From assembly GCF_004330295.1 (NCBI RefSeq), contig NZ_SJOJ01000003.1, positions 1-64,000 on the forward strand: a stretch of DNA of 64,000 nt. Reading direction: 5' to 3'. This DNA is from Rahnella victoriana (lineage in GTDB: Bacteria > Pseudomonadota > Gammaproteobacteria > Enterobacterales > Enterobacteriaceae). Positions 34,746 through 45,076 of this stretch are shown one piece after another; position 1 is the first letter of the stretch, and every line of letters begins with the position of its first letter. Both the position numbers and the translations under genes were made by a program. The notes beneath the pieces are model-generated. The model ran no database searches. It saw only the letters and a program-made list of their open reading frames with translations, and had not been told where the DNA came from.

Positions 34746-35537
34746 ATGAACATGAACAAACGGCTGTTGGCATGGGCAGGCGCGGCAATGCTGGTGCTTC
34801 AGGCATCCGGCGCGATGGCCGATCAGTTGCAGGATATTCAGAAGCGCGGCGTGCTGCGCGTGGCGGTGCCGCAGGACTTCCCGCCGTTTGGTTCGGTGAG
34901 CAAGGATTTGCAGCCGGAAGGTTATGACATCGACATGGCGCAGTATCTGGCCGACAAGATGAAACTTAAGTTGCAACTGGTGCCGGTGACCAGCGCCAAC
35001 CGCGTGCCTTACCTGCAAACAGATAAAGTCGATCTGGTGATTTCCAGCCTCGGCAAAAACGCCGAGCGCGAAAAAGTGATCGATTTCAGTAACGCCTATG
35101 CGCCGTTCTTCCTCGGCGTGTTTGGCGCGCAGGGTGACAAACTGGCCGATCTGAAAGCACTGTCCGGCAAAACCATCGGCGTGACCCGTGGCGCGGTGGA
35201 AGATCTGGCGCTGACCGATGTGGCGCCGAAAGACGCCAAAATTCAGCGTTATGAAGACAACAACACCACGTTGTCAGCGTACCTGTCCGGTCAGGTGGAA
35301 TACATCGCCACCGGTAACCTGGTGGTGGCGGCCATTGCCCGCATGAATCCGGCTAAAGCGCCGGTGTCGAAAGTGATGCTGAAAGACTCGCCGTGCTACG
35401 TCGGCCTGCGTAAAGACGAACCGGCGCTGAAAGATAAAGTGAATGCCCTGATCGCCGAAGGTATCAAAGATAAAACGCTGAATACGCTGTCCGAAAAATG
35501 GATGAAGGCTCCGCTGCCGGCTTCCATCGGCGCGTAA
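34746..35537 (+). CDS. ABC importer, periplasmic substrate-binding protein (family 3)
   Basis: 263-residue amino-acid-type binding protein. A signal peptide ends near ASGAMA, followed by the SBP_bac_3 fold (RGVLRVAVPQDFPPFGSV, YDIDMAQYLADKM, VDLVISSLGKNAEREKVIDFS). First gene of the operon that continues with two permeases, an ATPase, hpxJ, hpxK, hpxT and hpxQ. The ligand is most likely a purine breakdown product such as allantoate or ureido acid, by context only. Confidence 0.85.
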   Translation: MNMNKRLLAWAGAAMLVLQASGAMADQLQDIQKRGVLRVAVPQDFPPFGSVSKDLQPEGYDIDMAQYLADKMKLKLQLVPVTSANRVPYLQTDKVDLVISSLGKNAEREKVIDFSNAYAPFFLGVFGAQGDKLADLKALSGKTIGVTRGAVEDLALTDVAPKDAKIQRYEDNNTTLSAYLSGQVEYIATGNLVVAAIARMNPAKAPVSKVMLKDSPCYVGLRKDEPALKDKVNALIAEGIKDKTLNTLSEKWMKAPLPASIGA

Positions 35538-35561
35538 TTAACGTTTTCACGGAGATCTTTC

Positions 35562-36227
35562 ATGACCTATCAGCTTAACTTTAGCGCGCTGTGGCCTTAT
35601 ATGCCGGAACTGCTGGCCGGTTTATGGACCACCATTGAGCTGACGGTACTGGCAACGGTTGGCGGTGTCGCAATAGGGATTTGCGGCGCAGCCATCCGCT
35701 GCGGCAACCATAAAACCCTGCGTGCGGTCTGGGGCGTGTATGTCGAAGCCATCCGTAATACGCCGTTTGTGGTGCAGTTGTTTTTCATTGTGTTTGGCCT
35801 GCCGGCCATCGGTCTGAAAATGACCGCCGGTGAGGCGGCGCTGCTGGCGATGCTGATTAACCTCGGCGCGTACAGCACGGAAATTATCCGCGCCGGTATT
35901 CAGGTGACGCCGAAAGGCCAGTGGGAAGCCGGGCGCGTGCTGGGATTAACCCGCAGCCAGACGTTTCTGCGCGTCGTATTGCCGCCGTCGCTGAAACGCA
36001 TTTATCCGTCGCTGGTCAGCCAGTGCATTATCGTGATGCTCGGATCTTCCGTGGTGTCGCAGGTGTCTTTTGAGGAACTGACGTTTGCTGCGAACTTAAT
36101 TCAGTCGCGTACTTTCCTCAGTTTTGAAGTGTATCTGGTCACCACCTTGTTCTATCTGTTGCTGTCGGTGGCGATGCGTCAGCTGTTGCTGCTGGCCGGA
36201 CGCCGTGTCTTTGGGAGTGAAAACTGA
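35562..36227 (+). CDS. ABC importer permease 1 (polar amino acid type)
   Basis: 221-residue HisM/GlnP-like permease with about five helices and the EAA loop EIIRAGIQVTPKGQWEAGRVLGL. Near the N-terminus is the typical VEAIRNTPFVVQLFFIVFGLP stretch. Its TGA overlaps the ATG of the second permease (TGATG), as expected for a heterodimeric membrane unit. Confidence 0.87.
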   Translation: MTYQLNFSALWPYMPELLAGLWTTIELTVLATVGGVAIGICGAAIRCGNHKTLRAVWGVYVEAIRNTPFVVQLFFIVFGLPAIGLKMTAGEAALLAMLINLGAYSTEIIRAGIQVTPKGQWEAGRVLGLTRSQTFLRVVLPPSLKRIYPSLVSQCIIVMLGSSVVSQVSFEELTFAANLIQSRTFLSFEVYLVTTLFYLLLSVAMRQLLLLAGRRVFGSEN

Positions 36228-36880
36228 TGATGACCTTCACCGACTGGGACATTGTGCGCAATCTCCTGCTGGCGGCGCGCTGGACCTTGCTGCTGTCGCT
36301 GACCGCGTTTATCGGCGGCACGCTGGTGACCTTGCCGCTGCTGTTATTGCGGCTGACCAAACGCCGCTGGCCGACACGGTTTGTGCGTCTGTATTCCGAA
36401 CTGTTTCAGGGCACGCCGCTGCTGATGCAGCTGTTCCTGGCCTTCTTCGGGCTTGGCCTGTTTGGCATCAACGTAAGCCCGTGGACCGCCGCCGCGCTGG
36501 CGCTGACGCTGTATACCAGCGCGTATCTGGTGGATATCTGGAGCGGCAGCATTGCCGCGCTGCCGAAAGGTCAGTGGGAAGCGTCACGCTGTCTCGGCCT
36601 GAATTTCGGTCAGACCTTATGGCGGGTGATCACCCCGCAGGCGCTGCGGATTGCCATTGCGCCGACGGTCGGATTTTCCGTACAGGTGGTGAAAGGTACC
36701 GCGCTGGCCTCGATTATCGGTTTTGTCGAACTGACCAAAGCCGGAACGATGCTCAATAATGTGACGTATCAGCCGTTCAAAGTGTTTGGATTAGTGGCGC
36801 TGGGCTACTTCCTGATGTGCTATCCGCTGTCGCGATACAGCCAGCATTTAGAAAAATCATTGCGTGGAGAGAAACAGTAA
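36227..36880 (+). CDS. ABC importer permease 2 (polar amino acid type)
   Basis: 217-residue permease paralogous to the previous one, with SELFQGTPLLMQLFLAFFG near the start and the EAA loop SGSIAALPKGQWEASRCLGL. It couples to the ATPase encoded next; its TAA shares a base with the following ATG (TAATG). Confidence 0.87.
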   Translation: MMTFTDWDIVRNLLLAARWTLLLSLTAFIGGTLVTLPLLLLRLTKRRWPTRFVRLYSELFQGTPLLMQLFLAFFGLGLFGINVSPWTAAALALTLYTSAYLVDIWSGSIAALPKGQWEASRCLGLNFGQTLWRVITPQALRIAIAPTVGFSVQVVKGTALASIIGFVELTKAGTMLNNVTYQPFKVFGLVALGYFLMCYPLSRYSQHLEKSLRGEKQ

Positions 36881-37632
36881 TGCCGCTGATCACCATCAAT
36901 CAGGTTCAGAAATTTTACGGCCAGAACCACGTGCTGAAAGGCGTGGATCTGGATATCGACAGCGGCGAAGTGATTTCGATCATCGGCCGCAGCGGTTCAG
37001 GCAAAAGCACGCTGTTGCGCTGCATGAACGGGCTGGAAGGCTATCAGGAAGGCAGCATCAAACTGGGTGGCATGACCATCACTGACCGCGATTCTCAGGC
37101 GCGTGACATCAGCCGTTCTGTCGGCATGGTGTTCCAGAGTTTCAATCTTTTTCCGCACATGACCGCGCTGGAAAACGTCATGCTGGCACCGCGCCGCGTG
37201 CTGAAAAAGTCCGCCGCCGAATGCCGTGAACTGGCCGCGCAGATGCTGGCGAAAGTCGGGCTGGCGGATCGCATGGATTATTACCCGTCGAATCTTTCCG
37301 GCGGCCAGCAACAACGTGTGGCGATTGCCCGTGCGCTGGCGATGACCCCGAAAGTGCTGCTGTGTGATGAAATCACCTCGGCACTGGACCCGGAATTAGT
37401 CGGCGAAGTATTGAAAGTGCTCGAACAACTGGCGAAAGAAGGCATGACGCTGGTGCTGGTGACGCACGAAATGAATTTTGCCCGCGAAGTGGGCGACCGC
37501 GTGGTGTTTATGCATCAGGGCACCGTGTGGGAACAGGGCGAAAGCCGGGCGCTGTTTGCCAATCCGCAAACCCCCGAGTTAAGACAGTTTATCGCCTCCG
37601 TACGCGGCCTGAATGAGGCTGCTGCAAGCTAA
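36880..37632 (+). CDS. ABC importer ATP-binding protein (GlnQ-like)
   Basis: 250-residue ATPase of the polar amino acid group: Walker [11 protein letters not shown]-loop [10 protein letters not shown], signature LSGGQQQRV, Walker [15 protein letters not shown] and H-loop VTHEM. I use the ATG at 36880; an upstream ATG at 36817 lies inside the permease gene. Powers the importer of this operon. Confidence 0.9.
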
Positions 37633-37650
37633 CATTGTAAAGGATTAACT

Positions 37651-38889
37651 ATGTCAGATTTCATCTCTCCCGGACAAATCAACCCGCCAACCCGTCTGCT
37701 GATGGGGCCGGGGCCAATCAATGCTGACCCGCGCGTGCTGCGGGCGATGGCGAGTCAGCTGGTTGGGCAATACGACCCGGTAATGACCGGCTACATGAAC
37801 GAAGTGATGGCGCTGTACCGTGCGCTGTATAAAACCGAAAACCAGTGGACGTTGCTGATCGACGGCACCTCGCGCGCCGGTATCGAAGCCGTGCTGCTTT
37901 CCGGCATCCGTCCCGGCGACAAAGTGCTGGTGCCGGTGTTTGGCCGTTTCGGCCATCTGCTGTGTGAAATTGCCCGCCGCTGCCGCGCCGAAGTGCACAC
38001 CATCGAAGCGCCGTGGGGCGAAGTGTTTGATCCCCAGCAAATCGAAGATGCGATTAAATCGGTAAAACCACGCTGGCTGCTGACCGTGCAGGGCGATACG
38101 TCCACCACCATGTTGCAACCGCTGGAGCAACTGGGTGAAATCTGCCGCCGTCACGGCGTGCTGTTCTATTCCGATGCGACCGCGTCCTTTGGCGGTAACC
38201 CGCTGGAAACCGATGCCTGGGGCTTAGACGCGGTGTCTGCCGGTTTGCAGAAATGCCTCGGCGGCCCGTCCGGCAGCTCGCCGGTGACCATCAGCCCGCG
38301 CTTTGAAGAGCAAATCCGCCGCCGTAAATGCGTGGAAGAAGGCATCCGTACCGCTGATCACGCCGACGGCGACGACGAGATGATCTACTCCAACTATTTC
38401 GATCTGGGCATGATCATGGATTACTGGGGGCCGGAGCGTCTGAACCATCACACCGAAGCCACCAGCATGCTGTTTGCGGCGCGTGAGTGCGCGCGCATCA
38501 TTCTTGAAGAAGGGCTGGATACCGGCATCGCCCGCCACAAATTACACGGCGGCGCGCTGCTGGCCGGTATTCAGGGCATGGGGCTGGAAGTGTTCGGCGA
38601 CCTGAACAACCGGATGAACAACGTGCTCGGCGTGGTCATTCCGCAGGGCGTTCACGGCGAACAGGTGCGCCAGATGATGCTTAATGATTTCAGCATCGAA
38701 ATCGGCACCTCATTTGGCCCGCTGGCCGGGAAAATCTGGCGTATCGGCACCATGGGTTACAACGCACGTAAAGACTGCGTGTTGCAAACGCTGGTGGCGC
38801 TGGAAGCGGTGCTCAACCGTCTGGGCTTCGCGTCGAAATACGGCGCTGGCGCGCAGGCCGCCTGGGATCACTACGCAGGAGGTCAGTAA
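37651..38889 (+). CDS. hpxJ: Ureidoglycine-glyoxylate aminotransferase HpxJ
   Basis: 412-residue class V PLP aminotransferase of the alanine-glyoxylate type. The substrate loop is LMGPGPINADPRVL, and the PLP lysine is Lys201 in GLQKCLGGPSG, with the Asp of YSDATASFGG before it. The Klebsiella HpxJ moves the amino group of ureidoglycine to glyoxylate, giving oxalurate and glycine. The context with hpxK, which produces ureidoglycine from allantoate, supports this over a general glyoxylate enzyme. AAAGGA precedes the ATG; the stop overlaps hpxK (TAATG). Confidence 0.88.
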   Translation: MSDFISPGQINPPTRLLMGPGPINADPRVLRAMASQLVGQYDPVMTGYMNEVMALYRALYKTENQWTLLIDGTSRAGIEAVLLSGIRPGDKVLVPVFGRFGHLLCEIARRCRAEVHTIEAPWGEVFDPQQIEDAIKSVKPRWLLTVQGDTSTTMLQPLEQLGEICRRHGVLFYSDATASFGGNPLETDAWGLDAVSAGLQKCLGGPSGSSPVTISPRFEEQIRRRKCVEEGIRTADHADGDDEMIYSNYFDLGMIMDYWGPERLNHHTEATSMLFAARECARIILEEGLDTGIARHKLHGGALLAGIQGMGLEVFGDLNNRMNNVLGVVIPQGVHGEQVRQMMLNDFSIEIGTSFGPLAGKIWRIGTMGYNARKDCVLQTLVALEAVLNRLGFASKYGAGAQAAWDHYAGGQ

Positions 38890-40163
38890 TGGCAGAAGCC
38901 TTTACGCTGGCTGCGGTTTCCGAAAGCGCAAAGCTTGCCGCTGAACGGGTGATGGCGCGCTGCGATGCGCTGGCCGCCATCAGTGAAACACCGGGGCAAC
39001 TGACCCGCGTGTATCTCTCAGCCGAACATTTGCAGGCCAATCAGGTGGTGGGCGACTGGATGGCAGCGGCCGGTATGCGCGTCTGGCAGGACAGCGTCGG
39101 CAATATCTGCGGGCGCTATGAAGGGCTGGATCCTTCGGCTCCCGCCATCCTGCTCGGTTCGCATCTCGACAGCGTGCGTAATGCGGGGCGTTACGACGGC
39201 CCGCTGGGCGTGCTGACCGCGCTGGAAGTGGTGGCGCATCTGCATCAGAACGCCATCCGTTTGCCGATGGCGGTGGAAATCGTCGGCTTCTGTGATGAGG
39301 AAGGCACACGTTTTGGCATCACGCTGCTGGGCAGCCGCGGGCTGACCGGCACCTGGCCAGCCGGCTGGCTGGAACGTCAGGACGCGCAGGGGATTTCTGT
39401 CGCACAGGCGATGCAGAATGTCGGGCTGGATCCGCTGAAGATCGGCGCGTCACAGCGCGCGGTCAGCGATTTCTGCGCGTACCTCGAATTGCACATCGAG
39501 CAGGGACCGTGCCTGCAAACGGCCGATGTGCCGCTCGGTGTGGTCACGGCGATTAATGGCGCACGTCGTCTCAATTGCGAATTCACCGGTCACGCCGGAC
39601 ATGCCGGAACCGTGCCGATGGGGCAGCGTCAGGATGCGCTGACCGCCGCCGCCGAATGGACGCTGGCGATTGAAAGCATCACCACCGCCACCGGCCGCAA
39701 TCTGGTGGCAACGGTCGGCACGCTGGAATGTCTGCCGGGCGCGGTGAATGTTATTCCGGGGCAGGTCAAACTGTCGCTGGATGTACGCGGACCGCGTGAT
39801 GATGATCTCGCTGCGCTGCTGGAAACGCTGCTGGCAAAAGGCCGCAATATCGCCGCCCGTCGCGGGCTGACCTTCGCCGCTGAGCAGTTTTACGGGATCA
39901 GCGCGACGGAATGTCACGCCGGTCTGCAACACCGCCTCAGCCAGAGCGTTTTACAGTTGCAGGGACAGGCGATGTCGCTGCCAAGCGGAGCAGGGCACGA
40001 CGCGATTGCCATCGCAGAATGCTGGCCGGTCGGCATGTTGTTTGTGCGCTGTAAAGACGGCATCAGCCATCATCCCGATGAATCTGTCACCACCGGCGAC
40101 GTGGCTTACGCGGTGCAGGCGTATATCAATACTGTGCTGAGTTTTGCTGAGGGGCATTTATGA
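38889..40163 (+). CDS. hpxK: Allantoate amidohydrolase HpxK
   Basis: 424-residue M20-family amidohydrolase. Metal-binding segments are GSHLDSVRNAGRYDGPLG, CDEEGTRFG and HIEQGPCL, with PSGAGHDA near the end. It hydrolyses allantoate to ureidoglycine, CO2 and ammonia. Coupled to hpxJ upstream and hpxT downstream by overlapping codons. Confidence 0.9.
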   Translation: MAEAFTLAAVSESAKLAAERVMARCDALAAISETPGQLTRVYLSAEHLQANQVVGDWMAAAGMRVWQDSVGNICGRYEGLDPSAPAILLGSHLDSVRNAGRYDGPLGVLTALEVVAHLHQNAIRLPMAVEIVGFCDEEGTRFGITLLGSRGLTGTWPAGWLERQDAQGISVAQAMQNVGLDPLKIGASQRAVSDFCAYLELHIEQGPCLQTADVPLGVVTAINGARRLNCEFTGHAGHAGTVPMGQRQDALTAAAEWTLAIESITTATGRNLVATVGTLECLPGAVNVIPGQVKLSLDVRGPRDDDLAALLETLLAKGRNIAARRGLTFAAEQFYGISATECHAGLQHRLSQSVLQLQGQAMSLPSGAGHDAIAIAECWPVGMLFVRCKDGISHHPDESVTTGDVAYAVQAYINTVLSFAEGHL

Positions 40164-40657
40164 CCTTTGAAGAATTCAATGCGCTGTCCGAATTTGAAGC
40201 CGTTGCCCTGTTGCGCCCGCTGGTGAATATTCCTTCGTGGGCGAAAATCGTCAGTGACGGACGGCCTTATGCTTCTGTGGAAGACGTGCTGCGTCGTGCT
40301 GAAGCGGCCTGCGAAAACTGGCAGCCGGAAGAGATTACGCAGGCGCTGTCAGCACATCCGCGCATTGGCGAGCGAGCCAGCGGTGCCAGCAAGGAAGCGC
40401 AGCTTTCCCGTGGCGAACAGGCAACGCTGAATATCAGCCAGCAGGCAGTGATTGATGCGCTGCATGACGGTAATCTGCGTTATGAACAGCGTTTTGGCCG
40501 GGTGTTTCTGATCCGTGCGAAAGGCCGCAGTTCAGAGGAAATTCTGGATAACCTGCAACGGCGGCTGAAAAATAAACCGGATGCGGAAGATCAGGAAACG
40601 GCACAACAGCTGAAAGAAATTACCCTGCTGCGTTTAAAGGAGATATTCCCGTTATGA
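40160..40657 (+). CDS. hpxT: OHCU decarboxylase HpxT
   Basis: 165-residue helical enzyme with the family motif SAHPRIGE (His66) and the C-terminal NRPDAEDQETAQQLKEITLLRLKEIF-like helix. It decarboxylates 2-oxo-4-hydroxy-4-carboxy-5-ureidoimidazoline stereospecifically to S-allantoin. It overlaps hpxK and hpxQ by four bases each. Confidence 0.92.
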   Translation: MTFEEFNALSEFEAVALLRPLVNIPSWAKIVSDGRPYASVEDVLRRAEAACENWQPEEITQALSAHPRIGERASGASKEAQLSRGEQATLNISQQAVIDALHDGNLRYEQRFGRVFLIRAKGRSSEEILDNLQRRLKNKPDAEDQETAQQLKEITLLRLKEIFPL

Positions 40658-40989
40658 CACGCATCACTACCCATATTCTGGATACGTCTTTAGGGCAGCC
40701 TGCGGCCAATGTGCACGTCTGGCTGGAACACCTTGAAGGGCAAAACATCACGCTCGTCAGCGAAACCCAAACCGACGCCGATGGCCGCGCTGCGAAATTA
40801 ACGCCGGAGCCGGTGGCTTCCGGGCATTACCGGTTGTGTGCGGATATCGGCGCGTATTTCACGGCGACCGGCCGCGAAACGCTGTATCACTCGGCGATCA
40901 TTGATGTGGTGATCGATGGCAGTCAGGATCATTACCATCTGCCGCTGCTGATCAGTCCGTATTCTTATTCAACGTATCGCGGCAGTTAG
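40654..40989 (+). CDS. hpxQ: 5-Hydroxyisourate hydrolase HpxQ (transthyretin-like)
   Basis: 111-residue transthyretin-fold hydrolase with the N-terminal THILDTSLGQPAANV (catalytic His7) and the diagnostic C-terminal YSTYRGS. There is no periplasmic signal peptide, so it works in the cytoplasm, opening 5-hydroxyisourate to OHCU. Last gene of the operon; the gene at 41002 converges on it with only 12 bases between the stops. Confidence 0.94.
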   Translation: MTRITTHILDTSLGQPAANVHVWLEHLEGQNITLVSETQTDADGRAAKLTPEPVASGHYRLCADIGAYFTATGRETLYHSAIIDVVIDGSQDHYHLPLLISPYSYSTYRGS

Positions 40990-41001
40990 CTTTCGCTTCC
41001 G

Positions 41002-42270
41002 TCAGCCCATCAGCAGGTGCGGATGTTTAAGCCGCACGCTTTTGGTCAGGGCGGCGTGACTGATATCCCGGTCGCGGTTGCTCTGACGGACCTGTTGCAG
41101 GAACGCCATCAGCAGCGGGTTCGGGCGTTCACGGCGCGACATCAGTTCCGGTTGTCCCTGCACGCCGAGAAAGAACGGATGATTGTTCAGTTCAACCGCC
41201 TGCGCCTGTTCACCACTTTCGTCATACCCTGACACGCGCAACCCGGCGCTTTCCAGTTCGGCCAGTAATTGCGGATTGAGATAACGGCGCTGGTTGTAAC
41301 GCAGGGTAAATTCCTCCCCCGTTTTATTCGCCAGCAGGCTGCCACTGCGGGTCATGACCGGATGATTTCCCAGACGCGGCTGTATATGTTCCGCAAGCGG
41401 CAAACCGGTTTGCAGGCTGCCGAGCGTTGACGGCCCGTGCATGACGACGCGATCCTGCCCGAGCACCTTTTGCCCCAGCGCGGTGACCATCTGATGCATC
41501 CCCTGATTAATGCCAAATACCGGCGTCTGGTTTTCCAGTGCCCAGGCGGCGGTCGCCAGTTGCCCGGTCTGCATCTCGCTGCGGGTGAGCGTCGCGCCCG
41601 GCAACATAATGCCGTCGACGTCAGACAGCGTGGCGTCAAGCTGACTGCCCGCCAGTGACGGCGTGATATAAATAACATCAATGTTCATTGCCAGTGCATC
41701 GGCAGCATCTCCCAGTGCAGCGAGCATCGCCGGATAGCTGTCACGCTGCTCGGCAAAATCACCCACCAGCGCCACACGCAGGGTTTTTCCTGCCCGCATC
41801 ACCGGTTGTGAAACCGAACCTAACGCCCAGCGGCCAAAGGCATCGCGTCCCCAGCCGTTACTGCGAATTTTGCCTGTGACGCAATCTTCCAGCTGGAATT
41901 TATCCTGATGGCGCACCACGGTTAATGATTCGATTTCAATGCCCTGTTCAGCGAGTTGTGCCGCCAGCCCTGCGGAGAGCGGTTCACGCAATGGCACGAC
42001 GATATCTTCTTTAAGTGCCCGATAAATCAGGGATTCAACGCCGGACGCTTCACCCGCGCCGCGCCCGGTCAGGCGTTCAAGCCATACCAGTCCGCTGGTC
42101 AGTGCATGACCCTGCGCGGTGACATGCTGACGTGCGTTCGGATAATGTTGCGCATCATGACTGACGGGAAAGTGACACAGCGGCAAAGCGCGCAATTCAG
42201 CAAGTATCGCTGCCATCGCGCCGTACAACGCGGGTTCGGGCGTGGAGTGTGCAATAAAGGTGATGGTCAT
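41002..42270 (-). CDS. CTP-synthase C-terminal-like glutamine amidotransferase, catalytically degenerate
   Basis: 422 residues. From about 160 to 395 the protein aligns with the glutaminase domain of CTP synthase, e.g. LRVALVGDFAEQRDSYPAML and LNNHPFFLGVQGQPEL. The nucleophile motif GICLGMQ is replaced by GINQGMH (Asn255 for Cys), and the catalytic His of HPE is Gln373 (QPE), while the Glu375 remains. So it should not release ammonia from glutamine. Residues 1-155 show no P-loop and match nothing I recognise. The start at 42270 has AGAGGACACC before it. It abuts the hpx operon and may be a binding or regulatory protein of nitrogen metabolism; function unknown. Confidence 0.75.
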   Translation of the reverse strand: MTITFIAHSTPEPALYGAMAAILAELRALPLCHFPVSHDAQHYPNARQHVTAQGHALTSGLVWLERLTGRGAGEASGVESLIYRALKEDIVVPLREPLSAGLAAQLAEQGIEIESLTVVRHQDKFQLEDCVTGKIRSNGWGRDAFGRWALGSVSQPVMRAGKTLRVALVGDFAEQRDSYPAMLAALGDAADALAMNIDVIYITPSLAGSQLDATLSDVDGIMLPGATLTRSEMQTGQLATAAWALENQTPVFGINQGMHQMVTALGQKVLGQDRVVMHGPSTLGSLQTGLPLAEHIQPRLGNHPVMTRSGSLLANKTGEEFTLRYNQRRYLNPQLLAELESAGLRVSGYDESGEQAQAVELNNHPFFLGVQGQPELMSRRERPNPLLMAFLQQVRQSNRDRDISHAALTKSVRLKHPHLLMG

Positions 42271-42309
42271 CAGGTGTCCTCTGTCAGATGTTTTTGCGGG
42301 GGTATTGAA

Positions 42310-42325
42310 TGCAAGAATTGATCCA
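42310..42325 (-). promoter_or_regulatory. Weak sigma-54-like site before the amidotransferase-like gene
   Basis: On the minus strand: TGGATC, 5 bases, TTGCA. The GG/GC spacing is right, the -12 part is perfect and the -24 part has two mismatches. The predicted start would give a leader of about 30 bases. No clear NtrC dyad was found upstream. Confidence 0.4.
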
Positions 42326-42482
42326 CACAGGGATGTCTTTACATGCTCTGACAAAAAGAGGGAGGTATGTCGCAAACACGCATTTGGTCACACTTCACTG
42401 CTATAAAACGACACGCTGTTCAGACCATAACGCGCTAAGGTAGCGCCGGTAGTTCTAACACTTCATTCACTAAGGAAGCATC

Positions 42483-42989
42483 ATGTCAGCATCGCTTTAT
42501 GGCAGTACGGCGGCACAGTTTGTTCGTGGTTTACAGAATCTTTCAGCCTTGCTGGAAAAGGGCGCGGCATGGGCAAAGGAAAACGGTAAATCAGAAGAGG
42601 ACGTTCTGAATACCCGTCTGGCCGGGGATATGTATCCGCTGGCGCGTCAGGTGCAAATCACCAGTGATATGTCGAAAGGCGCCATCGCCCGTCTGTCCGG
42701 CGTTGCCGCACCGGCGATGGAAGACAATGAAGTGACCTTTGCCCAGTTGCAGGAACGTATCGCCAAAACCCTGCGCTTTATCGAAAGCGTGGATGTCGCG
42801 AAGCTGGAAGGCGATGAATCCCGTGAGATCGTGGTGAAAGGCAGAAACCATGAACTGAAATTCACCGCGCACAGTTACGTCACCGTATTTGCCGTACCGA
42901 ACTTTTATTTTCACATCACCACGGCCTACAACATTCTGCGCCATCTGGGTGTGAATATTGGTAAGGCGGATTTTATCGGCGGAAATTAA
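42483..42989 (+). CDS. DUF1993 family protein
   Basis: 168-residue soluble helical protein of the DUF1993 family (SLYGSTAAQFVRGLQNLSALLEK at the start; HSYVTVFAVPNFYFHITTAYNILRHLGV near the end). The fold is thought to be related to DinB-like four-helix bundles; no function is known. It stands alone: a CTAAGGAAGC ribosome site precedes it and a strong terminator follows at 43022. The 212 bases before it, shared with the divergent amidotransferase-like gene, hold its promoter, which I could not define. Confidence 0.82.
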   Translation: MSASLYGSTAAQFVRGLQNLSALLEKGAAWAKENGKSEEDVLNTRLAGDMYPLARQVQITSDMSKGAIARLSGVAAPAMEDNEVTFAQLQERIAKTLRFIESVDVAKLEGDESREIVVKGRNHELKFTAHSYVTVFAVPNFYFHITTAYNILRHLGVNIGKADFIGGN

Positions 42990-43021
42990 CAGCGGCGGGA
43001 AGTGGCAAAACGGTATGAATT

Positions 43022-43058
43022 AAAAATGCCCCGGCTGAGAAGTCCGGGGCATTTTTTT
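43022..43058. terminator. Bidirectional terminator between the DUF1993 gene and yafV
   Basis: AAATGCCCCGG / CCGGGGCATTT stem with A-run before and T-run after, between convergent genes. It reaches the stop of yafV. Confidence 0.9.
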
Positions 43059-43830
43059 AATCATGAAGCAAAAAGGTATCGGCATCGCGCCACGCGGGGA
43101 AGGTTTCGCGGTAATCCTGTAGTGCTTCCAGTGACAGTTCGGCATCGATAATCATTGCCGAACCCGGCTCAGCCCGCGCCAGTTCTTCACCCTGCGGATT
43201 AATGATCAGGCTGTCGCCGCTGTAGTAGTGACCGTTATCGTCATGACCAACGCGGTTGCACCCGGCAACATATGCCTGATTTTCAATCGCACGGGCGGCG
43301 AGCAACGTCTGCCAGTGGCGGCTGCGCGGGGCAGGCCAGTTGGCGACGTAAAGCGCCAGATCGTAATCCTGACGGTTGCGGGAATACACCGGGAAACGCA
43401 GGTCGTAACAGACTTGCGGCAAAATACGCCAGCCGCGCCATTCGACGATTTCACGGCGTTTGCCCGGCACATAATAGTTGTGCTCACCGGCCATGCGGAA
43501 CAGGTGACGTTTGTCGTAAAAATGCACTTTGCCCTGCGGTTCCACCAGCAGAAAACGGTTCACCGCGCCTTCCGTGGTGCTTAACGCCACACTGCCGCCA
43601 ACCATCGCGCCGAGCTGTTTTGCCCACTGTTGCAGCCATTGCACCACACGCGACTCCGGCAGCGCGCTGCCCGGTGCCTGCATGGCGAAACCGGTGGTAA
43701 ACATTTCCGGCAACACGATCAGGTCGCGGCCGGTCAGCGCACCGAGCAGGCCGTCGAAATGGGCGAGGTTAGCCTCACCGTCCAGCCACACCAGCGGCTG
43801 TTGCAGTACAGACAGTTTTAAAGTTGACAC
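43057..43830 (-). CDS. yafV: Omega-amidase YafV (Nit2-like, 2-oxoglutaramate amidase)
   Basis: 257-residue nitrilase-fold enzyme with the triad Glu42 (LPEMF), Lys107 (YDKRHLF) and Cys141 (PQVCYDLRFP). It matches E. coli YafV closely. It starts with GTG at 43830, with GGAGCGCCT before it; the ATG-started longer frame lies in ybdL. It begins 13 bases before the end of ybdL, so the two are coupled: a glutamine-dependent transaminase would make 2-oxoglutaramate and YafV would hydrolyse it to 2-oxoglutarate, pulling the reaction forward. Confidence 0.92.
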   Translation of the reverse strand: MSTLKLSVLQQPLVWLDGEANLAHFDGLLGALTGRDLIVLPEMFTTGFAMQAPGSALPESRVVQWLQQWAKQLGAMVGGSVALSTTEGAVNRFLLVEPQGKVHFYDKRHLFRMAGEHNYYVPGKRREIVEWRGWRILPQVCYDLRFPVYSRNRQDYDLALYVANWPAPRSRHWQTLLAARAIENQAYVAGCNRVGHDDNGHYYSGDSLIINPQGEELARAEPGSAMIIDAELSLEALQDYRETFPAWRDADTFLLHD

Positions 43831-44978
43831 AGGCGCTCCGCAGCAGCGTCCAGCGTGGCTTCCTGTTTGGCGAAGCACAGCCGGATCAGTTTATGTGGGA
43901 AAGGCGCGGCGCAGAAGACCGACATCGGAATGGCCGCCACGCCAACATGTTCAGTCAGCCAGTGGCAGAATGCAACATCGTCCAGATCGGATACGTCACT
44001 GTAATCGACCAGCAGGAAATAGGTGCCCTGGCTGGGTAACACCTTCAGGCGACTGTTGGCCAGCCCCTGCGCCAGACGGTCGCGTTTGGCCTGATAAAAG
44101 GCCGGTAATTCCTGCCAGTGTTCCGGCGCTTCGCACAGCATATCCGCCAGTGCCAGCTGAACCGGCGTGGTGATGGAGAAGGTCAGATACTGATGAACCT
44201 TGCGCAGTTCGGCGCTGATCACCGCCGGTGCCACGCAGTACCCCACTCGCCAGCCGGTCATGTGATAGGTTTTGCCGAACGATGACACCGCAATGGCGCG
44301 CTGACGCAGTTTGGGATGACGCAGCACGCTGGCGTGGCCTTCGGGGGCAAAACAGATGTGCTCATACACTTCATCGCTCAGCACGAAAATGTGCTTATCC
44401 GCAATGGTCTGCCAGAGCTGTTCAACGTCGCTGTGGCTCCAGACTGTGGCCGACGGATTGTGCGGGGTGTTGATGATCACCAGCTTCGTGCGGTCGGTTA
44501 TCTGATCGGCGAATTCCGCCCAGTTCACCCTGAACTCCGGTGGCTGTAACTGAATACGCTTCATCACGCCGCCCGCCAGTTCTACCGCCGGGGCGTAACA
44601 GTCATAGCTCGGATCGAAAGCAATCACTTCATCGCCTTTCGACACCAGCGCGGTGATGGCGATATACAGCGACTCGGTCGCGCCCGCCGTGATGGTGATG
44701 TCGGTGTTGGCGTCCGGTGCATAGCCGTAAATCTGTTCGGTTTTCGCGGCAATGGCTTCACGAAGCTGCGCGGTGCCGGTCATCGGCGCGTACTGGTTCG
44801 CGCCCTGACTGACGTGATACGCCAGACGGTCACGCAGATAATGCGGACCGTCGAAATCAGGAAAACCCTGCGACAGGTTAATCGCATTGTGTTTCTGCGC
44901 CAGCGCACTCATCTGGGTGAAAATCGTGGTGCCTAATGCAGGGAGCTTACTTTCGGGGATCAATGCTGCTGTGCTCAT
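43818..44978 (-). CDS. ybdL: Methionine/ketomethiobutyrate aminotransferase YbdL
   Basis: 386-residue class I/II PLP aminotransferase. NLSQGFPDFDGP near the start, NTPHNPSATVW and the PLP lysine Lys236 in SSFGKTYHMTGWRVGY identify it as the glutamine transaminase K/YbdL type. It should transaminate 2-keto-4-methylthiobutyrate to methionine, the final step of methionine salvage (MtnE role). It is divergent from mtnB across 208 bases with MetJ boxes. In E. coli ybdL is elsewhere in the genome. Confidence 0.9.
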   Translation of the reverse strand: MSTAALIPESKLPALGTTIFTQMSALAQKHNAINLSQGFPDFDGPHYLRDRLAYHVSQGANQYAPMTGTAQLREAIAAKTEQIYGYAPDANTDITITAGATESLYIAITALVSKGDEVIAFDPSYDCYAPAVELAGGVMKRIQLQPPEFRVNWAEFADQITDRTKLVIINTPHNPSATVWSHSDVEQLWQTIADKHIFVLSDEVYEHICFAPEGHASVLRHPKLRQRAIAVSSFGKTYHMTGWRVGYCVAPAVISAELRKVHQYLTFSITTPVQLALADMLCEAPEHWQELPAFYQAKRDRLAQGLANSRLKVLPSQGTYFLLVDYSDVSDLDDVAFCHWLTEHVGVAAIPMSVFCAAPFPHKLIRLCFAKQEATLDAAAERLCQL

Positions 44979-45076
44979 GGCGGGTCAATACTCCTGGACC
45001 GTTGACCTGACAGGCGTCAGGTGTGCAAATAGCGATGTTGCTCACAATATAACACGATGTTAATATTTGGCAATCG

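Follow-up and report, generated by a model that had tools for sequence, protein, structure and literature searches.

Glutamine amidotransferase (GATase) domains that have lost their glutaminase activity are already known as a kind, as is the GATase fold itself; to our knowledge, however, those preserved by selection are few, CPS1 being the textbook case. Mammalian CPS1 is described as having a serine in place of the catalytic cysteine of its glutaminase-like domain, so that ammonia must come from outside (PMC4655335). The gene analyzed in this work, harbored by a window (i.e., the whole stretch of DNA that was analyzed) of 64,000 nucleotides from Rahnella victoriana, likewise encodes a glutaminase-like domain kept under selection without its catalytic cysteine. 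However, CPS1 possesses other synthetase domains of its own and has a known ammonia-dependent reaction, and the two are compared by analogy.

CTP synthase (PyrG) differs from the 41002..42270 protein in that the latter lacks the P-loop synthetase half and has lost both the catalytic triad and the glutamine pocket; the match with Escherichia coli PyrG starts at position 286, a front domain of 155 residues replacing about 285 residues. The gamma-glutamyl hydrolases PuuD and SpuA, which are active catabolic enzymes, share the class I GATase fold but are single-domain proteins and score far lower; indeed, our protein reaches 31.6 bits against the PuuD equivalog cut-off of 266, and it has no Cys. 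The CTP synthase C-terminal region-related (seleno)proteins (NF004836) are likewise CTP-synthase-type GATases devoid of the synthetase half (5.4e-24), but our protein scores 84.6 bits against a cut-off of 260 and the 228-position model matches residues 164-394 only, so that the front domain is not part of it. A GxUxG selenoprotein form of this kind is on record (PMC13188914). Lastly, the active two-domain members, such as Agrobacterium fabrum ATU_RS26150, its relatives in Pantoea and Shinella, and a paralogue in the same genome, have intact catalytic residues, unlike the clade of the 41002..42270 gene (hereinafter the dead clade). No paper on this gene or on its relatives' cluster was found in the open-licence literature searched; what appears to be new is the existence of a Cys-less clade of a two-domain family, which had no match in the literature searched. 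Since dead and intact members coexist in the same genomes, the cause and the consequence of the loss can be directly compared.

Results

Organization of the Gene and of Its Product

The features of the region are reported in Table 1. The names hpxJ and hpxK, for the class V aminotransferase and the allantoate amidohydrolase genes, and yafV and ybdL, for the amidohydrolase and the methionine aminotransferase genes, are those that we assume to apply.

Table 1. Coordinates of the 41002..42270 gene, of the parts of its product, and of the neighboring genes.
Feature	Position	Strand	Remarks
ABC transporter of the hpx-like cluster (substrate-binding protein, two permeases, ATPase)	34746..37632	+	
Class V aminotransferase (hpxJ-like) and allantoate amidohydrolase (hpxK-like) genes	37651..40163	+	NF006773 above cut-off for the amidohydrolase
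OHCU decarboxylase gene	40160..40657	+	PF09349
HIU hydrolase/transthyretin family gene	40654..40989	+	PF00576; convergent neighbor
41002..42270 gene	41002..42270	-	422 aa; ATG 42270 to TGA 41002; start and length identical in Rahnella orthologues
Front domain, residues 1-155	41806..42270	-	No recognized family
CTP-synthase-type GATase half, residues 160-395	41086..41793	-	
Asn255	41506..41508	-	Replaces the nucleophile Cys (CTP synthase Cys379)
Gln373	41152..41154	-	Replaces the catalytic His (CTP synthase His515)
Glu375	41146..41148	-	Third triad residue, kept (CTP synthase Glu517)
C-terminal extension, residues 396-422	41005..41085	-	Dead clade; mostly missing in active relatives
DUF1993 gene	42483..42989	+	Divergent from the 41002..42270 gene
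Amidohydrolase (yafV-like, nitrilase family) and methionine aminotransferase (ybdL-like) genes	43057..44978	-	5' of the 41002..42270 gene

The original prediction had described a CTP-synthase-type amidotransferase carrying Asn255 and Gln373 instead of Cys and His, whose first 155 residues contained no P-loop and belonged to no recognized family, and both observations were confirmed. The protein has the class I GATase fold but not the active-enzyme residues (Cys-His-Glu triad and oxyanion Gly), in that it exhibits Asn255, Gln373, and Ala226; the whole CTP synthase model TIGR00337 gave 106.8 bits against a cut-off of 462.75, with a match confined to residues 152-392. The structural comparison carried out with Foldseek and VIA-align retrieved, among the 50 matches listed, CTP synthases or other GATase-fold kinds, aligned within residues ~154-405. 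As for the front domain, no P-loop motif was seen by inspection of the N-terminal half, and the family libraries searched returned no trusted match. In the dead clade, S404 and H405 of the C-terminal tail are invariant, and so are the arginines R379, R380, R382, and R395. No promoter or terminator signal exceeding shuffled sequences was found in 40600-42600, no Rfam match was obtained in 40500-43100, and E. coli genomes gave no match to the gene at the DNA level.

Distribution and Phylogeny of Dead and Active Members

A second full-length member is present in the same genome (G000:C63:158061-159251); it shares 42% identity over residues 2-397 and retains intact GLCLGMQ and GHPEL motifs. More in general, active relatives share 29-43% identity across most of the length, with the same front domain and the same GATase half, which, together with the invariant residues in common, places the 41002..42270 protein in a two-domain family; intact members were also found on plasmids of Agrobacterium, Pantoea, and Shinella.

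Orthologues at 84-90% identity occur in nine records of Rahnella, of which eight belong to named species and one to Rahnella sp. AA; L006-L014 duplicate nine of the genome-search matches and were counted once. In the genus sample, all 14 genomes had a family match and 13 an orthologue, G303 harboring the active copy alone. All six genomes of genus g15 carry the orthologue, and the family sample, in which 33 of 392 genomes matched at E <= 1e-30, added four carriers of genus g203 and three of g191, for a total of 26 genomes from four genera; the identity to the 41002..42270 protein is 63-71% in g15 and 49-51% in g191. The order- and phylum-level samples gave matches in only 3/295 genomes at E <= 1e-40 and, when the active copy was used as query, in 3/345 at 1e-45, and the front-domain profile matched 2/398 genomes under order/phylum-level sampling; given these few matches, the two-domain family is sparse.

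For the phylogenetic tree, the 26 window-type sequences were combined with 25 active members and 6 CTP synthases; the former occupy one side of a branch with an SH-aLRT of 99, although this was a quick search without bootstrap, with a long-branch warning and a support of 74 for the active rows themselves. Since the outgroup and all the active rows possess the Cys, these sequences are most simply explained by a single Cys loss on the stem of the dead clade. Not part of the 25 active members are the active-type matches G628, G580, and G396; the active copies of the four g203 genomes, all of which read GLCLGMQ and GHPEL; and L091, a protein of 448 aa that starts oddly and has both Cys and His, which is missing from the tree and from A2/A3 as well. 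The conservation list comprises 24 active members, because L051 was omitted from it and from A2/A3.

Dead and active full-length members coexist in 9 of the 13 Rahnella carriers and in all four g203 genomes. In the other 13 of the 26 carriers (6/6 g15, 3/3 g191, and 4/13 Rahnella) no second match at E <= 1e-30 was found, with only 4/9 and 4/6 first-look candidates scored for G505 and G573, respectively. The idea that the active paralogue is decaying in g203 was discarded; stops had been reported inside three of the four copies, but they actually lie past the C-terminus.

The Lost Glutaminase Site

In CTP synthase, the residues considered here belong to the triad, to the oxyanion hole, or to the contacts with glutamine. 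We compared the pocket of 26 window-type orthologues, 25 active-clade members, and 10 CTP synthases, mapping the positions on the PyrG of the same genome (545 aa, in which Cys379, His515, and Glu517 carry these same numbers). Gly352, Cys379, Leu380, Gln383, Glu403, His469, and His515 are intact in 10/10 CTP synthases and, together with Glu517, in 25/25 active members. In all 26 orthologues, the residues of Gly352, Cys379, Leu380, Gln383, Glu403, and His469 are absent, the Glu403 position being occupied by Gly in 23 sequences and by a gap in three (all those of g191). The equivalent of His515 is lost in 23 orthologues and kept in three, the residue aligned with Arg470 is retained in 23, and the Glu517 position is occupied by Glu in 22 and by Asp in four.

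Whether Asn255 and Gln373 are conserved together was a check suggested by the original prediction, and they proved not to be. Indeed, both positions vary within the dead clade (Asn 23 and Gly 3 at position 255; Gln 17, His 3, Asn 3, and Arg 3 at position 373), so the two residues are not a conserved unit. Seven different residues occupy the oxyanion position (226, equivalent to Gly352). From these alignments, the pocket of the dead clade is a site that has been drifting since its function was lost, with no fixed new triad.

Selection and Shifted Constraint

None of the 26 orthologues contains internal stops. The median pairwise dN/dS of the dead copies is 0.135 in Rahnella (78 pairs), 0.165 in g15 (15 pairs), 0.089 in g203 (6 pairs), and 0.247 in g191 (3 pairs), and it is 0.230 between Rahnella and g15 orthologues (78 pairs); the active Rahnella copies gave 0.089 (45 pairs). 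The GATase half of the dead groups is also under purifying selection (medians of 0.09-0.22 within groups).

The medians of dN(front)/dN(GATase) are 0.56, 0.61, 0.61, and 0.66 in the four dead groups vs. 0.94 in the active copies of Rahnella and 1.39 in those of g203, the genus with both kinds; these are pairwise ratios from non-independent pairs with no phylogenetic correction. The ranges do not overlap in g203 (dead 0.52-0.69, active 0.93-1.80), but they do in Rahnella (dead 0.30-1.28, active 0.42-2.39). Since the ratio is lower in the dead than in the active groups, the front half became, on median, the relatively more constrained part once the glutaminase died.

One objection to a maintained non-catalytic protein would have been the finding of close homologues with Cys and His, disclosing a merely decaying enzyme. 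Such homologues do exist, but in the sister clade; no orthologue possesses the Cys, only three have the His, and the orthologues are under purifying selection. Thus the idea of mere decay fails, and the 41002..42270 gene is maintained.

The Front Domain

P13, A20, G54, S59, G60, L61, D143, G146, and R147 are invariant in the dead clade and conserved in at least 95% of the 24 active members; these residues, together with the new C-terminal tail, may mark functional places. Structure prediction of residues 1-160, which had been proposed as a check, was of use for the GATase half, which matched CTP synthase/GATase folds, and not for the front part: the whole-length AlphaFold2 model has blocks of 26-67 pLDDT in residues 1-160, most of them below 60, and the front-only model has a mean pLDDT of 43.0, both unusable there; the input consisted of window and related-locus sequences, the diverse relatives from the genome search being left out. 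Two weak family candidates were rejected, that is, mitochondrial L47 (E 0.02, about 40 residues) and SCNM1_acidic (E up to 1 in 8/27 members, 0.0053 at best; in the member shown, the match covers 15 residues).

The idea that the front domain is a shrunken synthetase half of CTP synthase did not receive significant support from the profile comparison of residues 70-160, which scored 12.4 vs. a mean of 11.9 for 150 shuffles. Pairwise BLAST to three CTP synthases extends to residue 78 of the front half, and the whole-family profile aligns with the synthetase domain over only 24-25 columns at an hhalign probability of 0.8-3.4%. Residues 3-27 scored 20.2 against the P-loop region (95th percentile of shuffles 16.3/17.3, maximum 22.3/25.8), and the dead-clade profile alone scored 14.1 against the synthetase domain, below the shuffle mean of 14.4; the likeness of residues 3-27 to the P-loop region is suggestive at most. 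An alignment with whole CTP synthases put the front domain at yet another place and was set aside.

Genomic Setting

In all 26 carriers, the gene is located between a convergent hpx-like cluster and the ybdL-yafV-like genes, co-directional with it and upstream, at distances up to 6.4 kb. The hpxK-hpxJ-like genes are found within 5.5 kb in 25 of them; the remaining one (L098) is on a contig that does not extend beyond the OHCU decarboxylase gene. The linkage to purine genes, which the original prediction had offered as a check, was thus recovered as proximity. However, the gene is not a co-directional member of an hpx operon, since it lies on the opposite strand and is convergent in the window and in the 25 other regions, and it does not occur wherever hpxJ occurs. 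An HpxJ-like match is present in 151 of 384 family genomes, 18 of which are among the carriers found and 133 are not (the samples of 384 and 392 genomes are not identical, and the genomes with no match are only partially listed). An HpxJ-like match accompanies the gene in every one of the 18 carriers of the family sample. In three carriers, the stretch yielded neither the OHCU decarboxylase nor the HIU hydrolase gene, while the orthologue is present; G630, from genus g191, harbors hpx-like and yafV-like genes without the orthologue. In several of 16 regions around other HpxJ genes the flanking genes adjoin directly (L154) or with other inserts. CTP-synthase-like matches close to HpxJ-like genes in L148 and L156 turned out, on reading, to be ordinary PyrG.

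Vertical inheritance could account for the unvarying position across four genera, so that the position favors neither the hpx-like nor the ybdL-yafV-like neighbor. The hpx link being positional and convergent, and ybdL-yafV being an equally constant neighbor, a role in purine metabolism is unproven.

Other features of these regions are worth reporting. The DUF1993 gene separates the 41002..42270 gene from the yafV-like one in 18 of the 26 regions (13 Rahnella and 5/6 g15) and was not found in those of g203 and g191. By eye, a urate-permease-like (NCS2-type) gene is present between the HIU hydrolase gene and the site in L106, L108, and L149-L152, and a uricase-like gene in L108 and L152. G303, a near-complete genome of the same genus that keeps the active paralogue, gave only short weak matches to 36000-45000, the block of the hpx-like genes, the 41002..42270 gene, and the ybdL-yafV-like genes, among the 40 of 161 candidates scored.

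The Active Paralogue and Its Cluster

The surroundings of the active copy were analyzed in 14 regions (L046, L049, L051, L052, L097, L111-L115, and L177-L180), from chromosomes and plasmids of Enterobacterales and Rhizobiaceae. M24 and MR/MLE genes are close to it in all 14; in 13 there are also genes for an M20 deacylase and an amino-acid ABC transporter, the stretch L177 ending before them. DapA-like and PLP aminotransferase genes also occur in 13 regions, the exception being Agrobacterium, where a VOC protein, a hydroxypyruvate reductase-like enzyme, and a D-amino-acid transaminase are encoded in their stead. The one M24 enzyme scanned is nearest to the ectoine hydrolase DoeA, below its cut-off. 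In L097 (G000:C63:150000-168000, the cluster of the own-genome copy), as well as in L046, L049, L051, and L052, this conserved catabolic cluster, unassigned to any pathway, comprises an amino-acid ABC transporter, an ArgE-like M20 deacylase, MR/MLE, M24, and DapA-like proteins, an aminotransferase, and the active CTP-synthase-like protein. Its substrate may be a cyclic amidine or an N-acyl amino acid.

Discussion

The whole body of data depicts a two-domain family, so far undescribed, in which this paralogue is glutaminase-dead and nonetheless maintained; its front domain would carry the remaining function and its GATase half would be scaffold-like; we assign to this reading a probability of about 0.58. 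The suggestion that a non-catalytic member had been kept is upheld by the absence of the Cys from all the orthologues and by purifying selection. According to this model, the front domain would bind, or react with, a small nitrogenous metabolite, using free ammonia or none, while the GATase half would have been retained as a folded scaffold, a dimer interface, or an allosteric module, as in CPS1. Purifying selection acts on the GATase half too, which may therefore play some part by itself. Moreover, the active relatives may be hydrolases rather than amidotransferases, in which case the comparison with CPS1 would be a loose one. The breakdown of allantoate releases ammonia, and an ammonia-using or ureide-related role would be compatible with the setting beside the genes for this pathway, but this is a guess. 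In a more specific form, the 155 front residues would represent a new enzymatic or ligand-binding domain, by now independent of glutamine, whose ligand would be either free ammonia released when ureides are broken down or some other nitrogen metabolite; we regard this as a decidedly unlikely conjecture. If it were true, the protein would be an ammonia-switched pseudo-amidotransferase of nitrogen recycling, and the ancestral partner of the front domain would have been a glutaminase/hydrolase.

Different roles, not mutually exclusive, might be envisaged on the basis of the neighborhood. An accessory function in purine (ureide) catabolism, such as the handling of ammonia or ureidoglycine for HpxJ/HpxK-like enzymes, overlaps the preferred reading and is unlikely but worth keeping in mind. 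It fits the closeness of the hpxK-hpxJ-like genes in all the 25 carriers whose contig reaches that far and the HpxJ-like match in every carrier of the family sample, as compared with the much lower overall frequency; however, the vertical inheritance of the position would explain the linkage equally well, most HpxJ-like genomes are not among the carriers found, the convergent orientation implies no co-transcription, and G630 dispenses with the gene, G303 being non-discriminating. Rather unlikely is a regulatory or stabilizing partnership with PyrG, with the neighboring Hpx or YafV/YbdL-like enzymes, or with the active paralogue, through the GATase surface and the C-terminal tail. The clade-specific tail, the invariant arginines, S404-H405, and the constant place between the two gene sets would agree with it, but half of the carriers show no active paralogue, which is thus not an obligate partner, and three carriers have the gene in stretches that yielded neither the OHCU decarboxylase nor the HIU hydrolase gene. 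For the former reason a hetero-oligomer with the active paralogue was rejected as a general role, bearing in mind that G505 and G573 were scored in part.

Other hypotheses concern the old active site. YafV is an omega-amidase, and the adjoining ybdL-yafV-like genes, as well as the Arg470-aligned residue kept by most orthologues, might point to a sensor of glutamine or of a related amide, e.g., alpha-ketoglutaramate, acting via the old glutamine pocket. Ketoglutaramate is reported to originate from glutamine transamination and to be removed by omega-amidases (PMC6302742). Nevertheless, at the six other pocket positions no orthologue has the enzyme residue, and positions 226 and 373 vary freely, unlike in a specific ligand site; the glutamine-sensing idea of the original prediction, weakened in particular by the changes or gaps (three rows, at Glu403) at the equivalents of Gly352, Leu380, Gln383, and Glu403, appears therefore improbable. 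A new chemistry based on Asn255, Gln373, and the retained Glu375 might find some comfort in the prevalence of Asn and in the presence of Glu or Asp in 26/26 sequences; it is nonetheless very improbable in view of the four residues admitted at position 373, of Gly in three sequences at 255, of the seven residues at the oxyanion position, and of Asp replacing Glu in four sequences of a drifting pocket. A decaying copy, lastly, might account for the loss of the catalytic residues, for a GATase dN higher than that of the front domain, and for the divergence of the g15 and g191 proteins, but no internal stops were found in 26 genomes and the median dN/dS is 0.09-0.25, which makes this the least credible of the explanations considered.

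As for the active relatives, they are publicly labeled either as "CTP synthase" or as "gamma-glutamyl-gamma-aminobutyrate hydrolase family protein" (e.g., Agrobacterium fabrum ATU_RS26150); the former label is misleading for members without the synthetase half, i.e., ATU_RS26150 and its plasmid relatives.

A last observation regards the class V aminotransferase of the window (37651-38889), which is matched in genomes as small as 0.5-1.2 Mb, the listed identities being 65-76% (G042, G327, G358, G395, G421, G424, G460, G516, G582, and G637). This looks like retention by endosymbionts and hints at a role of the enzyme beyond ureide breakdown.
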